From positions 124,001 through 188,000 of the forward strand of contig JAJPJQ010000010.1 in the NCBI GenBank assembly GCA_021324155.1: a stretch of 64,000 nucleotides of DNA, read 5' to 3'. Shown here piece after piece: positions 15,241-25,058 of the stretch. Source of the stretch: Pseudomonadota bacterium. GTDB taxonomy: Bacteria; Desulfobacterota; Binatia; UBA9968. The notes beneath the pieces were generated by a model, which did no database searches, was not told the origin of the DNA, and was given only the letters and a program-made list of their open reading frames with translations. The first letter of the stretch is position 1. Each line of letters begins with the position of its first letter. The translations under genes and the position numbers were made by a program.

Positions 15241-16206
15241 ATGCTCATCGAGAAAAGCTTCCTTTCCCTTTCCGTATTTTTCGCGCTCAGCCTGGCATTT
15301 TCCCTGTCGTGGGCCAAGAGTCCGCCGACAAATACGAAACTGGGAACCAACGCGCTCGCGAACAAGAACACTGGCAGTGTCGATAATACCGCCGTCGGGT
15401 TTGACGCGCTACATGTCGACGGCCAAGGCTCGAACAACACGGCCGTCGGGGCCGGCGCGCTCGCAGCCAACACGACGGCGAACAGCAATACGGCCGTCGG
15501 CTCTGCGGCGCTTTCGGAAAACACCAGCGGTGAAGACGGCACCGCCGTCGGTGCCGACGCGCTGGCTCAGAGCACCGGCCAGCGGAACACCGCCGTGGGA
15601 AGCCTGGCGCTTTTTTCGAACGTGAGCGGGACGGAGAACACCGCGATAGGATTTTTCGCCGATGTCTCGGCCGACAACTTGACTCGCGCGACCGCGATCG
15701 GCGCGCGCGCCACCGCGACCGAAAGCAACAGCATCATGCTCGGAACCGATACGGATACCGTCATCGCGGCGAACACGATGCGCGTCACCTTCATCCCGCC
15801 GCTGCCGTCCGCCGCGCAGGTCTGTTTCGACGCGCCGGGCAACCTGCTTCAATGCGGCGCTTCGAGCTTGCGCTGGAAGACGAACATCCGTCCGTTCACC
15901 CCCGGCCTCGATGTGATTACGGCGCTGAAGCCGATCGCTTTCGACTGGAAAAAAGACGGCCGCGCCGATATCGGCCTCGGCGCCGAGGACGTCGCGGAGG
16001 TCGCTTCGTTCCTGACTTTTTCCGGCAAACAGGGCGAGATCGAAGGCGTGCGGTACGAGAAGATTCCGCTGCTGCTCATCAACGCGATCAAGGAGCAGCA
16101 GCAGGCGATCGAGAGGCAGCGCGAGCAGAACGCCGCGCTCGCGGCGCGGATCGAACGGCTCGAAGAATTGCTGCGCGAGCGCACCGCGGCAGCGGACGCG
16201 CGCTAG
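15241..16206 (+). CDS. Exported protein with NTAVG-type head repeats and C-terminal peptidase S74/intramolecular chaperone domain
   Basis: Signal peptide; repeated NNTAVGAGAL/NTAVGSAAL/GTAVGADAL/NTAVGSLAL/NTAIG; SSLRWKTNIRPFTPGLDVITALKPIAFDWKKDGRADIGLGAEDVAEV...; terminal coiled coil; AAGGAGG RBS. Confidence 0.88.
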   Translation: MLIEKSFLSLSVFFALSLAFSLSWAKSPPTNTKLGTNALANKNTGSVDNTAVGFDALHVDGQGSNNTAVGAGALAANTTANSNTAVGSAALSENTSGEDGTAVGADALAQSTGQRNTAVGSLALFSNVSGTENTAIGFFADVSADNLTRATAIGARATATESNSIMLGTDTDTVIAANTMRVTFIPPLPSAAQVCFDAPGNLLQCGASSLRWKTNIRPFTPGLDVITALKPIAFDWKKDGRADIGLGAEDVAEVASFLTFSGKQGEIEGVRYEKIPLLLINAIKEQQQAIERQREQNAALAARIERLEELLRERTAAADAR

Positions 16207-16792: not shown

Positions 16793-16854
16793 ACCTGGCT
16801 GCTTGGCGAAGTGCATTAGAAAAGACTCCCGACCCTTTTTTCTCCTCCCTGGAT

Positions 16855-17511
16855 TTATTCTTTCGCCTGCGCTTCGAGAAGAATACGATGTTTCACCGAA
16901 ATCGGGTAAGCGATGCCGCCAGGAGTGATTAGCAGACCGCGTACTGCATCGTAATAAATGCCTCGTAGCCCGCATCCGCATGGCAGAAAATCATCGGCTA
17001 AAAACAATCCTAAGCTCTTATAGGTAGCCGTACTTTTTTCGCCGTTAACTGCGTTAGATTTCAAATAGTCGGCTCCTGAAACACCGCGATATTCGTCGGG
17101 CCCGTATTCGAAAACAGCCGAGCTACTGGCTGCAAGATGTTCCATTCTTTCGATTTGTGAAACGAGCTTACCATTACTGCCTATTTTTTTAGCCTGGAAA
17201 AGCATTCCCTTGAAAATCTTTTGCTCACCTAAGGTGATCTCAACTTGGAATATTCCATCGGCACCGCTGGTTTTCTCAAACGCGCCCTTCCCCCGACCCC
17301 CAAATTTTTTGTAGTCCACCCGCCAAGACCAGGACTGACCGTTTACTTGAACCGGAGATGACCAATGTGCTCTGAACGTTTTTCCCAACTCACCTGTTAA
17401 GGTGTCCTCCTCATCAGAAGCGCTTTCCCAACTTTCTGTGGCTTCCTTCGCGCGCTCGACCAAATGCTTTTTGATGTCGTTGTAGATGGCGGTCGGCAAG
17501 ACGTCCAGCAT
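16855..17511 (-). CDS. Putative PD-(D/E)xK-type nuclease of uncharacterised family, divergent from helicase
   Basis: GELGKTFRAHW...TSGADGIFQVEITLGEQKIFKGMLFQAKKIG: Glu, GxD and QxK spacing as in Mrr-like nucleases. Confidence 0.6.
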   Translation of the reverse strand: MLDVLPTAIYNDIKKHLVERAKEATESWESASDEEDTLTGELGKTFRAHWSSPVQVNGQSWSWRVDYKKFGGRGKGAFEKTSGADGIFQVEITLGEQKIFKGMLFQAKKIGSNGKLVSQIERMEHLAASSSAVFEYGPDEYRGVSGADYLKSNAVNGEKSTATYKSLGLFLADDFLPCGCGLRGIYYDAVRGLLITPGGIAYPISVKHRILLEAQAKE

Positions 17512-17571
17512 GGGCGCCCGTATAGCAGAGGAAGCTTACTTAACGCAAATGTTGCGCCACAACTATTGGAT

Positions 17572-17601
17572 CAACTTTCATATTCAAATAGACGAAAGTT
17601 G
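17572..17601. promoter_or_regulatory. 8-bp inverted repeat (CAACTTTC-N14-GAAAGTTG) in divergent intergenic region; possible operator
   Basis: Direct reading of the 161-bp gap between divergent genes. Confidence 0.35.
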
Positions 17602-17672
17602 CCTGATAAATTCCTATGAGCTATATCTAGCGCCTGATCCATCATTATTTTGCACGCCGAATTTCGCCGAGT

Positions 17673-20600
17673 ATGATACTTAAAATACCTGCCGTACTCT
17701 CAGTAGACGAATCGATAGAGAATAATCCCGTTTGGCAGATTGCTGAACCCGCAATACAAAGTGACGGGCGTCTTGCAACCTTTACTCGCGGGCGCCTTGA
17801 GGGCTTCATCTTCCAGCCTAATCTCGGCGAAGAAGTTTTGATCATTTCTAAAAACAAACCGCCCGATGGCCATCCGCGGGTTATTCGCGGAACGATCAAC
17901 CCTCAGGCTGCAATCGTTGACCTCTCAGATGGAATGTGGCTTAGGCATCCGTTGCTTGATCGTCAAGAGCGATTAGCTGAACGTGAGGAAGCAATAGACC
18001 AAGTGCTCCGCTCGTGGGACGGTGCCTTTTCATACATTCAGGAAGATACCTCAAGAAACATTCCTGGACTTCGGGCTCCTCAGATAGGGGCAGTACATGC
18101 GGTACATGCGCATTGGTCCATTTCCAACGCAATAGCGACGATAGTAATGCCCACAGGCACGGGTAAAACTGACACGATGATTTCGATACTCGTATCAGCC
18201 CGCTGTTCCAAAGTTCTTATTATCGTGCCAACCGATGCGTTACGCAGCCAGTTGGCTGAAAAATTTCTTACGCTCGGCATTCTCAAGAAGCCGAACTACG
18301 GGGTTCTTCGCGATAATGCAAAATTTCCGATTGTCTGTAGCCTGGAACACATTCCTCGGTCTGTTGATGAAGTAGACCTCCTATTCGGAAATTCACAGGT
18401 CATAGTGACTACCAGTACCATCGCTGGCCAGGTGTCAGCGACTATCAAAGACCGCATGGCGCAACACTGTCCCTACCTGTTTATAGACGAAGCTCATCAT
18501 GCGGAGGCACCGACATGGAGTTCATTCAAACGAACATTCGCTGGACGCAACATCCTACAGTTTACGGCAACGCCCTTTCGTGAAGACGGTAAACCACTTG
18601 ATGGAGAAATCATTTACAAATATCCGCTGAAAAAAGCGCAAGACGAAGGATATTTCAAACCGATCGAATTCCGGCCAGTTGTTCAGTTCAATCCCAGGCG
18701 GTCCGATAGGGCCATCGCCGTTGCCGCTATTGAGCAATTGCGACACGATGCCGACAAGGGCCACATAGTAATGGCGAGAGTGGACAATGTCGCCCGCGCC
18801 AAGCAGGTCTTCGAACTATACAGACCCTATGCAGAGTTTAATCCTGTACAGCTCCATACGGGAATCAAATCCAAGCGTCAGCGCGACGACATCCGCAAGA
18901 AAATCATTAGCGGAGAGGCGCGCATTGTTGTCTGTGTAGATATGTTGGGTGAGGGTTTCGACTTACCCGAATTGAAAATCGCCGCGTTTCACGACATTCG
19001 CAAAACGCTTCCGGTCACGTTACAGCTTGCCGGCCGCTTTACCCGAGCACGTCCAGACCTGGGCAATGCGACTTTTATTGCGAATACGGCAGATGTGAAC
19101 GTCCAAGATGAATTACGAAAACTGTATACACGCGACCCGGATTGGAATGTGCTACTTCCCCAACTAAGCGATGCAATGATAGGAGAACAGGTTTCCCTTC
19201 AAGACTTCCTTCATGGCTTCACTGACTTCACAAAAGAGATCCCGCTTAAAACAGTCAGGCCGGCGATAAGCACTGTCGTGTACACGACGGCCTGTGCTGC
19301 ATGGAGACCGGAAAACTACCGCGCAGGCATACCGAATTTGAGCACTTGTGAGCAAGTGCACGAGACCATCAATCACGCAAAGAACACACTTATTGTAGTC
19401 ACGGCTCGGCGTGTCCCATTGGCATGGACAGATGTTGAGAGCCTCTATAGCTGGGAATGGGAACTCTACGTCGTGTTTTGGTCGCCCGATCAAAACTTGC
19501 TTTTTATTAACAGTTCAACAAACGCGGGAGAATATAAAGCCCTCGCTGAAGCGGTCGCTGGCGAAAATGTGACGCTCATCCGCGGACAAAATGTATTCCG
19601 AACTTTTTCCGGCGTAACTCGACTTCGCCTACAGAACGTAGGGTTGACAGAACAGTTAGGGCGAAACGTCCGGTATACTGGCCGCATGGGTGCCGATGTT
19701 GAGGCTGGCTTGCCGGATGTCCAACGACGTCACGCACTCAAATCAGTGCTAGCTGGGAGCGGCTATGAAGAAGGCGAAGAGACGACGATAGGAGCATCTA
19801 GAAAAGGGCGAATCTGGTCGCACAAAAGGGAGCGAGTCGATCAGCTAGTTGAATGGTGCAAAAAGATCGGCGCAAAACTACTCGATAATACAATTGACCC
19901 AGAAGATATACTCAGGGGAACCCTTGAGGCGAAAGCTGTTCTAGAGCGTCCGGTAAAAATGCCCATAGCTATCGACTGGCCGGAAAGCGTTTACACAACT
20001 CAGGAGGCAATATGGTCGGTCAAATTTGGGGACAATACGTATTCTCTGAGCGATTTGGATTTGGAGATTATCTCCCCAAGCGTCGATGGTCCCCTACGTT
20101 TTTCGATTTCCTCGGAGACTGAAGAAATAAGATTAGAACTGCAGCTATTTGAGGAGGAAGAGTCGCCAAAATATCGCTTTGTGGTTGTGGATCACGGGCG
20201 TGCCTCGATCAGCCGAGGCGAGCGCGCGCTGCGGGAAAGCATTGCGGAATTCTTCTACAACGATCCACCGACAATCTGGTTCGCCGATGGGTCCTCTTTG
20301 GAGGGTAATCAATATATCGAGCTTAGGACAACGCGCCCTCCGTATGACGTCGCCAAAATTCAGGCATGGGACTGGTCAGGCATTAATATCCGCAAAGAAT
20401 CCCAGGGTGACCGGAAGGACGCAGATTCCATACAAGCAAGAGTCATTCAAACTTTGCGAACACTGAATTACGACATGATCATTGACGATGATGGAAAGGG
20501 CGAGGCCGCCGATGTTGTTACAATTCGGAGAATAAATGATGAGCGACCACGCATCGAGGTTGAATTCTATCACTGCAAATACTCACAAGAAGCAACCGTG

Positions 20601-20945
20601 GGACAGAGAATTAAAGACTTGTATGAAGTCTGCGGACAAGCGCAAAAGAGTATTTTTTGGATGAGACCTGAAAAACGAACCGATCTCCTTACCCATCTTC
20701 TCCGCCGAGAGGAACGTCGGCAAGAGGCGGGTCTTTCAAGTCGTTATGAGGTCGGCGACGGAGAGTTGTTGCTAACAATCCGAGAAATGAGCCGAATCTA
20801 TCCAATGTCATTGAAGATCTTTATCGTTCAACCCGGGCTATCCAAAAGTCGTGCGACAAGAGAACAACTGGAGCTTATGAGTGTATCGGAAACTTACCTA
20901 ATTGAGACGTTCCAATTGGCTTTTGGCGTAATAGCCAGCCCATAA
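17673..20945 (+). CDS. SF2 DEAD/DEAH-box helicase, 1090 aa, with long uncharacterised C-terminal region
   Basis: Motifs PTGTGKTD (I), IDEAHH (II), FTATPFREDG (III), DMLGEGFDLPELKIAAFHD (V), QLAGRFTRARPD (VI); C-terminus contains EAADVVTIRRINDERPRIEVEFYHCKYS. Confidence 0.93.
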   Translation: MILKIPAVLSVDESIENNPVWQIAEPAIQSDGRLATFTRGRLEGFIFQPNLGEEVLIISKNKPPDGHPRVIRGTINPQAAIVDLSDGMWLRHPLLDRQERLAEREEAIDQVLRSWDGAFSYIQEDTSRNIPGLRAPQIGAVHAVHAHWSISNAIATIVMPTGTGKTDTMISILVSARCSKVLIIVPTDALRSQLAEKFLTLGILKKPNYGVLRDNAKFPIVCSLEHIPRSVDEVDLLFGNSQVIVTTSTIAGQVSATIKDRMAQHCPYLFIDEAHHAEAPTWSSFKRTFAGRNILQFTATPFREDGKPLDGEIIYKYPLKKAQDEGYFKPIEFRPVVQFNPRRSDRAIAVAAIEQLRHDADKGHIVMARVDNVARAKQVFELYRPYAEFNPVQLHTGIKSKRQRDDIRKKIISGEARIVVCVDMLGEGFDLPELKIAAFHDIRKTLPVTLQLAGRFTRARPDLGNATFIANTADVNVQDELRKLYTRDPDWNVLLPQLSDAMIGEQVSLQDFLHGFTDFTKEIPLKTVRPAISTVVYTTACAAWRPENYRAGIPNLSTCEQVHETINHAKNTLIVVTARRVPLAWTDVESLYSWEWELYVVFWSPDQNLLFINSSTNAGEYKALAEAVAGENVTLIRGQNVFRTFSGVTRLRLQNVGLTEQLGRNVRYTGRMGADVEAGLPDVQRRHALKSVLAGSGYEEGEETTIGASRKGRIWSHKRERVDQLVEWCKKIGAKLLDNTIDPEDILRGTLEAKAVLERPVKMPIAIDWPESVYTTQEAIWSVKFGDNTYSLSDLDLEIISPSVDGPLRFSISSETEEIRLELQLFEEEESPKYRFVVVDHGRASISRGERALRESIAEFFYNDPPTIWFADGSSLEGNQYIELRTTRPPYDVAKIQAWDWSGINIRKESQGDRKDADSIQARVIQTLRTLNYDMIIDDDGKGEAADVVTIRRINDERPRIEVEFYHCKYSQEATVGQRIKDLYEVCGQAQKSIFWMRPEKRTDLLTHLLRREERRQEAGLSSRYEVGDGELLLTIREMSRIYPMSLKIFIVQPGLSKSRATREQLELMSVSETYLIETFQLAFGVIASP

Positions 20946-21055
20946 AACAGGGAACCATAAGTCCCGCCAACCTCCCCAACTCCCTCTAAATCTTGACTTT
21001 CCCTAGCGAAAATGATTTTCGTATATGTTCTACTTTTGACTTTTGGAGGGCGGGA

Positions 21056-22702: not shown

Positions 22703-24244
22703 ATGTCCCTCGATTTACCCGCCGTCTACAACGCCGCGACCACGTTCGTGGACGAGAACATCGCCCGCGGGCGCGGCAAGCGCACCGCGATCTATTATCA
22801 GGACGAGACCTTCACCTACGACGACGTCTTCGCGCGCGTCAACCAGACCGGCAACGCGCTGAGAGAATTGGGCGTCGACGTCGAGCAGCGCGTCGTGCTC
22901 GCGCTGCCGGACTCGCCGGAGTTTGCCTTCGGATTTTTCGGCGCGATCAAGATCGGCGCGGTGCCGATCCCGACCAACCCGTGGATGAAGGCGAAGGACT
23001 ACGAGTACCTGCTGAACGACAGCCGCGCAAAGGCGGCGATCATCCACGAATCCGTCCTGCCGGAGTTCGAGCCGATCTGGAATACTCCGCGGCATCTGAA
23101 AGCGGTTATCGTCGTCGGCAAGCCCAAGGGCCGCGCGGTCTCGTTCGAAGCCGTCGTCGGGAAAGCGTCGAGCCGCCTCGAGGCCGAGCCGATGAGCAAG
23201 GACGACATCTGCTTCTGGGGCTACACGTCGGGCTCGACCGGCGCGCCCAAGGGCGCGGTGCACCTCCAGCACGACATGATCACGATCACCGACCTGTTCG
23301 TGAAGCCGGTGCTCGGCATGACCCAGGACGACCTCTGCTTCTCGGCCTCGAAATTATTTTTCTCCTACGGCCTCGGCAACTCGCTCTATTTCCCGTTCCG
23401 CTTCGGCGCCTCGACCGTGCTGTGGCCGGAAAAGCCCGACCCGGAAAAAATTCTGCAAGTCATCGAGAAGTACCGCCCGACGTTTTTCTTTTCCGTGCCG
23501 ACGCTCTACGCGCGCTTTCTTCGCGTCGAGCGCGAGTACGATCTCAGCTCGCTCAAAATCTGCCTCTCGTCCGGCGAGCCGCTGCCGCCGGCGCTGTTCC
23601 ATCAATGGAAGGATAAATACGGCGTCGAGCTGCTCGACGTCGTCGGCTCGACCGAGGCGGCGCACGACTTTCTCGCCAACCGCCCCGGGCGCGCGAAAGC
23701 CGGGAGCAGCGGCGAGGTCACGCCGGCGTTCGAGGCGAAGATTCTGGACGACGACGGGCGCGAGCTGCCGGTCGGCGAGGTCGGGAATTTATTCGTCAAA
23801 GGCGACGCCAACGCGCTCTGCTACTGGAACAAGCACGAGCAGACGAAAAAGATGATGCACGGCGCCTGGCTCAAGACCGGCGACATGTATTACCGCGACG
23901 CGGAGGGCTACTACTGGTACTCCGGGCGCTCGGACGACATGATGAAGGTCGGCGGCCTGTGGGTCTCGCCGATCGAGATCGAGAATACGCTGATGGAGCA
24001 CCGCGCGGTGCTCGAGGCCGCGGTCGTCGGCCAGGAAGACCACGACGGCCTGTTGAAGCCCAAGGCCTACGTCATCTTGAAGAGCGAGTTCAAACCGAGC
24101 GACCAGCTCAAGGAAGAATTGCAGACGCTCGTCAAGAGCAAGCTCCAGCCCTACAAATATCCCCGCTGGGTCGACTTCGTCGACGACCTGCCGAAAACCG
24201 TGACGGGGAAGATCCAGAGATTCAGGCTGCGGGGAAAAGATTGA
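22703..24244 (+). CDS. Benzoate-CoA ligase family protein
   Basis: GYTSGSTGAPKGAVHLQHDM; FTYDDVFARVNQTGNALRELGV; SGRSDDMMKVGGLWVSPIEIENTL; LPKTVTGKIQRFRLR. Confidence 0.93.
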   Translation: MSLDLPAVYNAATTFVDENIARGRGKRTAIYYQDETFTYDDVFARVNQTGNALRELGVDVEQRVVLALPDSPEFAFGFFGAIKIGAVPIPTNPWMKAKDYEYLLNDSRAKAAIIHESVLPEFEPIWNTPRHLKAVIVVGKPKGRAVSFEAVVGKASSRLEAEPMSKDDICFWGYTSGSTGAPKGAVHLQHDMITITDLFVKPVLGMTQDDLCFSASKLFFSYGLGNSLYFPFRFGASTVLWPEKPDPEKILQVIEKYRPTFFFSVPTLYARFLRVEREYDLSSLKICLSSGEPLPPALFHQWKDKYGVELLDVVGSTEAAHDFLANRPGRAKAGSSGEVTPAFEAKILDDDGRELPVGEVGNLFVKGDANALCYWNKHEQTKKMMHGAWLKTGDMYYRDAEGYYWYSGRSDDMMKVGGLWVSPIEIENTLMEHRAVLEAAVVGQEDHDGLLKPKAYVILKSEFKPSDQLKEELQTLVKSKLQPYKYPRWVDFVDDLPKTVTGKIQRFRLRGKD

Positions 24245-24249
24245 TACCA

Positions 24250-24269
24250 GGGCACGGCACGCCGTGCCC
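24250..24269 (-). repeat. Palindromic repeat family B, copy 1
   Basis: GGGCACGGCACGCCGTGCCC; 9-bp arms, AC centre; within RAYT 3' extension. Confidence 0.9.
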
Positions 24270-24289
24270 CACATCGGATGCGAATCGAT

Positions 24290-24309
24290 GGGCGGTTCGC
24301 GAACCGCCC
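24290..24309 (-). repeat. Palindromic repeat family A, copy 3
   Basis: GGGCGGTTCGCGAACCGCCC followed by CTAC; within RAYT 3' extension. Confidence 0.93.
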
Positions 24310-24565
24310 CTACTCCCAAGACTCTCTATTCCGGGTTTTGGTGCCGCGGGATTTTCCTGGTCGATATCCCACTTCAGGGGATTCTCCTCAATATATGTTC
24401 GGATCCGGTGCCATTCGTCTTCGCTCCGAATGACGTGCTCGTAATAATTGCGCTGCCAGACCGGAGCGCCGGGCGCGCGGCGGAGAACATTTATCTTTTT
24501 TGTGGAAACAGTTTTGAACGCCCCGATCAACCGGCCTAATGGTTTCCGTCTCATCTCCGGTGTAG

Positions 24566-24585
24566 GGGCGGTTCGCGAACCGCCC
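24566..24585 (+). repeat. Palindromic repeat family A, copy 4, inserted in frame within RAYT coding sequence
   Basis: TGTAGGGGCGGTTCGCGAACCGCCC; encodes GGSRTAPT in RAYT. Confidence 0.93.
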
Positions 24586-24872
24586 TTATTAAAATCATCG
24601 AGAACAATAACGCCGTGGAGGTGGTTTGGCATGATGATCCACGCGTCCAAAGATACCTGCTGATATCGCTGCGCCAACCATTCCCAACATTCCTCCACCG
24701 CCCGCCCCAATTCATTCAACCGCATCTCCCCGTCGGCAATTTCGCCGAACAGGCATTGGCGATGCTTCGCGCAGACGGTAATGAAATACGCCCCGGATTG
24801 TTTGTAATCGTAATCGGCGAGGCGGATCGATCGCCGGTGATGTTTGTCGGGATCGTAATGCATATCGAGGAA

Positions 24873-24892
24873 GGGCACGGCACGCCGTGCCC
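24873..24892 (-). repeat. Palindromic repeat family B, copy 2 (just upstream of RAYT start)
   Basis: GGGCACGGCACGCCGTGCCC then CTAC. Confidence 0.93.
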
Positions 24893-25058
24893 CTACAAAT
24901 CCGAAATCCAAATACCACATGCAATCAACAATGCATAATTTGGTTGTGCGCACCGTCCCGTCGGTTTGGTCATCCTTACGAAATCATCATTTCCCCCCCT
25001 TTCGACTTCCTCCCCCAACCGTGATACAGAAAATAAAATTTTATTCTTAGGAGACTCG

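Follow-up and report, generated by a model that had tools for sequence, protein, structure and literature searches.

A candidate single-gene helicase-nuclease and its small divergent neighbour in a two-gene low-GC island

Do a small putative nuclease and a large SF2 helicase encoded by two divergent genes constitute one defence system, or do they act separately? The locus lies in the window, the whole stretch of 64,000 nucleotides that was analysed, and the preliminary description had read it as a nuclease/helicase defence module. The divergent open reading frames that it reported, 161 bp apart, are confirmed with their coordinates, and are part of the following features:

16800-20990, no strand: low-GC island holding only two genes, 48-50% GC against a window mean of 62%
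16855-17511, minus strand: small gene, 218 aa, open reading frame confirmed
17512-17672, no strand: divergent intergenic gap between the small gene and the helicase gene
17673-20945, plus strand: large helicase gene, 1090 aa, open reading frame confirmed

A two-gene island of low GC

The island, missed in the preliminary description, is sharply bounded in GC, with 47-51% at 17000-20999 and 58-70% over most of the flanking sequence. Within the window, where all comparisons of base composition were made, GC3 is 0.498 in the small gene and 0.495 in the helicase gene, whereas it ranges from 0.82 to 0.92 in six neighbouring genes. A low-GC island made of just these two genes suggests that they were probably acquired horizontally. 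The genes flanking the island are, by our own reading of their sequences, presumably a DUF2147-like gene and an aldehyde dehydrogenase (ALDH) gene. No clean empty site was found in relatives, because the ALDH gene lies there in another neighbourhood. The intergenic gap contains one weak promoter-like match (17649-17677, plus strand), promoter-like matches in it do not rise above those in shuffled sequences, and a search of the gap for an operator shared by both genes gave no convincing candidate.

Two other genes were observed near the island. A 321-aa protein encoded at 15241-16206 ends in a Peptidase_S74 (endosialidase chaperone) domain, which is common in phage tail fibres, and a gene for a 243-aa IS200/REP-associated (Y1_Tnp) transposase-like protein is present at 24222-24953, 3.3 kb downstream of the island.

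The large protein: an SF2 motor with a nuclease-like C-terminus

The 1090-aa protein is an SF2 helicase, as previously proposed, and at the sequence level this assignment is far beyond chance, given the Pfam matches (ResIII 6.5e-20, Helicase_C 1.5e-08) and the 32-41% identity to plasmid and E. coli proteins along their length. All the motifs that had been quoted for both proteins are present at the residues given for them, including FTATPF (297-302), GEGFDLP (426-432) and QLAGRFTRARP (451-461) in the large one. The Pfam matches to ResIII, DEAD and Helicase_C are confined to residues 133-459, and alignments together with an AlphaFold2 model (mean pLDDT 75, pTM 0.57) indicate the following architecture:

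Residues about 1-100: beta-rich N-terminal part, optional
Residues about 130-490: SF2 core
18150-18170, plus strand: helicase motif I PTGTGKT (Walker A), residues 160-166, invariant in the family alignment
18486-18497, plus strand: helicase motif II DEAH, residues 272-275, invariant in the family alignment
Residues about 530-870: beta-rich middle part
20397-20843, plus strand: C-terminal PD-(D/E)XK-like domain, residues about 909-1057, from motif, alignment and predicted element order

The N-terminal part is considered optional because the first 100 residues are absent in several family members. Alignments of 14 and 10 members retain all helicase motifs and a strongly conserved C-terminus.

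The motor is of the RadD/XPB/SauUSI-like SF2 type. Foldseek placed RadD (6jde) as the best fold match, and XPB-Bax1 (6p4f) is with it the best structural match to the motor; SauUSI (7clg) is also among the closest folds, and among the best helicase matches in a sequence search of solved structures. RadD, a chain of 586 aa, has no counterpart of the C-terminal domain of the large protein, and XPB-Bax1 pairs a motor with a nuclease, but Bax1 is a separate protein. NCBIfam gave a weak RadD match (9e-09). PADLOC models matched partially, in the helicase part, with PbeA as the best (1.3e-12), HamB1 at 3.8e-04 and mREase_IV models as well.

The SauUSI and mREase_IV matches would suit an ATP-dependent type IV (modification-dependent) restriction enzyme, in which the beta-rich middle part would read modified bases, the motor would translocate and the nuclease would cut. 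SauUSI, an ATP-dependent restriction endonuclease, is likewise a single polypeptide with a related SF2 motor. However, its match covers the motor, and the nucleases differ: SauUSI has a phospholipase-D-type nuclease and an SRA-like domain, neither of which, and thus no modified-base reading domain, was detected by Pfam search of the large protein. We therefore regard a SauUSI-like mode of action as unlikely.

The nuclease-like domain of the large protein itself had been overlooked. Its invariant or nearly invariant residues are E909, Q921, D939-D940, G943-E944, A946-D947 and H967-x-K969, and the resulting GE-x-AD...H-x-K motif is found in 20 of 21 cellular members (the exception, at locus L165, reads AEAGD...HCK) and in all ten members from viral contigs. 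Distant family members keep both the P-loop and the nuclease motif. AlphaFold2 predicts a helix (920-929), three strands (935-938, 948-954, 960-968), a second helix (980-997) and a later strand (1045-1057), that is, an alpha-beta-beta-beta-alpha...beta order in which D947 precedes the second strand and HxK ends the third, as in PD-(D/E)XK nucleases, although HxK is an unusual third motif for them. The PADLOC candidate PDC-S71 has this domain in common with the large protein: its 589-position model matches there only, at residues 927-1001, with an E-value of 1.6e-06 (2.8e-12 for the best in the comparison). The motif and the element order point to a PD-(D/E)XK-like nuclease. Searches with the domain gave no Pfam or PDB-sequence match and no significant match to a solved nuclease, so that the assignment is one we infer rather than prove.

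Spread of the helicase-nuclease family and its probable function

Full-length relatives, with 26-48% identity and sizes of about 970-1110 aa across the family, are present on plasmids of Proteobacteria, Bacteroidota and Actinomycetota. A plasmid search matched 116 records, 55 of which cover at least 80% of the query, with 33-40% identity among the matches listed. The family is present in 15 of 5426 complete E. coli genomes, and profile scans found further full-length members in IMG/VR viral contigs. In the host's phylum (247 genomes), the full-length protein is found in the host only, all other matches being short helicase-core ones. No full-length model of the family was found in PADLOC 2.0.0 (2023), NCBIfam or Pfam, and no paper or experiment on it was found by accession, keyword or PDC-S71 in searches of libraries up to 2023 and of mainly open-access papers. 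The family is apparently unnamed.

In the 21 annotated helicase loci, neighbours vary from lineage to lineage. They include AbiH, AbiEii/AbiGii and HEPN, LmuB of Lamassu (verified with PADLOC, 2.7e-91), type I restriction-modification, a gamma-mobile-trio (GMT) element or island, an Abi family protein and a TIR protein. About half of the neighbourhoods have no recognisable defence gene and carry only transposases, plasmid genes or housekeeping genes. The E. coli copies are located either in an integrase island at tRNA-Leu or beside cdi genes. No partner gene is conserved across the helicase loci compared. Some lineages may nevertheless use partners, as illustrated by two arrangements:

L043:11435-12682, L044:11435-12688 and L007:9096-10361: gene of about 415 aa in E. 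coli helicase loci
L005:1-9279 and L006:1-9279: PD-(D/E)XK gene, UvrD-helicase gene, then helicase-nuclease gene, with 14-bp spacing, on Sulfitobacter and Mesorhizobium plasmids

The first, unmatched in Pfam and PADLOC, comes after the helicase-nuclease in all three E. coli loci seen and is possibly a lineage-specific partner, and the second is possibly a three-gene AddAB-like defence operon.

We consider it likely that the 1090-aa protein acts on its own, as a horizontally spread single-gene helicase-nuclease effector against phages or other foreign DNA. Its nuclease activity, defence function and trigger are what we infer; in favour of this reading as a whole are a mobile context that is often rich in defence genes, the conservation of both motif sets, the lack of a conserved partner, and the low GC and GC3. 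The same reading is weakened because a plasmid location also fits repair or plasmid maintenance. The family as a whole is borne by plasmids and defence islands and probably protects bacteria from phages or foreign DNA. A RadD-like enzyme of DNA repair or recombination, which mobile elements would carry to replicate themselves, would be consistent with the RadD matches in fold and in NCBIfam, with the plasmid-borne copies and with the AddAB-like neighbours in some alphaproteobacteria, but the sporadic presence, the defence-gene neighbours, the island location in E. coli and the nuclease-like domain added to the motor argue against it, and we find it highly improbable.

As a defence effector, the large protein would use its RadD/XPB-like motor to engage abnormally structured DNA or a replication intermediate; phage ssDNA or DNA coated with SSB is a possible target, suggested by analogy with Hna and AbpAB, which is not evidence (PMC13381803, PMC10732053). 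The motor would translocate on ATP and deliver the DNA for degradation to the PD-(D/E)XK-like domain at the C-terminus (D947, H967, K969). Recognition or regulation would probably fall to the beta-rich N-terminal and middle parts, and neither a methyltransferase nor a fixed partner would be needed.

The closest parallel in way of working is Hna of Sinorhizobium and E. coli, a single-protein defence of 845 aa with a DinG/XPD-like SF2 motor and a C-terminal PD-(D/E)XK nuclease (PMC13381803). Both combine, on one polypeptide, an SF2 helicase at the N-terminal side with a further domain at the C-terminus, which in Hna is the PD-(D/E)XK nuclease and in the large protein the predicted PD-(D/E)XK-like one. 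Like Hna, the large protein would be a single-gene defence that works with no methyltransferase. In contrast to Hna, the large protein has a ResIII/RadD/XPB-like motor, is longer, and carries beta-rich extra parts and the GExAD...HxK motif. Membership of Hna was rejected on the difference in motor, and the best supported reading, drawn by analogy, is an Hna-like way of working with a different motor. PbeA of PbeABCD has an HKD nuclease and acts together with an ABC-ATPase and DndE (PMC10853773), whereas no HKD domain was found in the large protein by Pfam search and its PbeA match is not full-length.

Other named systems were rejected. The HamB1 match covers 55 residues only and the small protein has no HamA domain, Pfam or PADLOC match, which argues against Hachiman; type I/III restriction R subunits score far below cut-off (PRK11448 31.9 bits against 729, PRK15483 9.5 against 564); and no Drm model is among the best 25 PADLOC matches, which leaves out DISARM (DrmA/DrmD). 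The earlier view that neither partner is HamA/HamB, DrmA or Res thus holds, since PADLOC and NCBIfam gave no full-length or above-cut-off match, and no already named system was matched over full length.

If our reading is right, an apparently unnamed single-gene family joins the small set of known immune effectors that combine helicase and nuclease in one protein. Its E. coli members, such as the one in NZ_CP148581, would be suited to cloning, and with the family one could test directly whether the strategy of Hna arose repeatedly, on different SF2 motors.

The small protein and its relation to the helicase

The 218-aa protein, with GADG at residues 83-86 and FQAKK at 105-109, has no match in Pfam, PADLOC, NCBIfam or PHROGs. 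Its family comprises seven members including the window protein; six share invariant residues that include E35, E79, G83, D85, Q106, A107 and K108, and the seventh has QGK in place of QAK. AlphaFold2 predicts a helix (35-46), three strands (59-69, 83-94, 97-108), a helix (115-126) and a strand (132-136), an order that fits PD-(D/E)XK together with E35, D85 and Q106/K108, in a model built from three sequences with a pLDDT of 50. Foldseek with this poor model gave no match. A PD-(D/E)XK fold is plausible, and the protein may be a nuclease, as first suggested. The D...QxK pattern resembles that of the active site in the AbpA nuclease domain (PMC10732053), with no sequence match detected to a known nuclease family. 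Profile matches in the PDB to designed helical repeats and dynein light chains were taken as artefacts of helical composition, and profile comparisons were negative against both a dsDNA nuclease linked to Lamassu and the nuclease-like domain of the helicase itself.

The preliminary description had named lack of co-occurrence in other genomes as grounds for rejecting the pair. Searched with a profile of the small family, none of 31 distinct helicase loci yielded a homologue. Conversely, the helicase profile found none in the loci of small-gene relatives L004, L008, L010, L047 and L048, nor is a helicase-family member in the open reading frame list of relative L161 or in G003, a genome of the host's family, seen from 1 kb upstream of the gene on. 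Since homologues do not co-occur, the pair is refuted as a conserved two-gene system; of the module first proposed, a probable defence module is retained and the nuclease/helicase pair is not. That a nuclease gene adjoins a helicase gene does not by itself indicate a system; co-occurrence has to be checked. A local partnership is possible given the shared base composition, and a locally assembled divergent pair in which the two proteins cooperate could draw on the same anomalous GC3 in both genes, which together make up the whole island, and on the defence genes that adjoin relatives of the small gene, making recruitment possible. The absence of co-occurrence on both sides and the helicase's own nuclease-like domain argue against such cooperation, which we consider distinctly unlikely. 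The small protein is rather, judging from sequence, probably an independent defence-associated accessory of nuclease type, which would have arrived in or been recruited to the same island.

The surroundings of its relatives are as follows:

L002:2-1652: ShosT-like phosphoribosyltransferase gene, then the small-gene relative, at a contig end
L004:1-6501 (Nitrobacter) and L010:852-8501 (Bradyrhizobium): conserved run of genes for a helicase, a GIY-YIG nuclease, a McrB-like ATPase and McrC, then the 218-aa-family gene
L047:2554-6663: small-gene relative and PADLOC candidate PDC-M65A/B, on a Polymorphobacter plasmid

The relative in G003 (59% identity) lies after a gene with a ShosT match (1.7e-21), and the contig ends 1 kb upstream of it. 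Besides the host, one of 395 genomes of its phylum has a relative, with no defence gene recognised beside it (L161). No relatives were found in viral contigs. In the Nitrobacter plasmid and in Bradyrhizobium the gene comes directly after mcrC, and in a Rhizobium plasmid it adjoins a restriction endonuclease gene. It is conceivable, though doubtful, that the family is a swappable nuclease or regulator plugging into unrelated systems (McrBC-like, ShosT-containing, PDC-M65AB and the helicase-nuclease here), which would make the divergent pair a mix-and-match immune add-on. Finally, the Polymorphobacter relative is 81 bp downstream of PDC-M65A/B, and the 218-aa-family gene may be a third gene of this candidate system.
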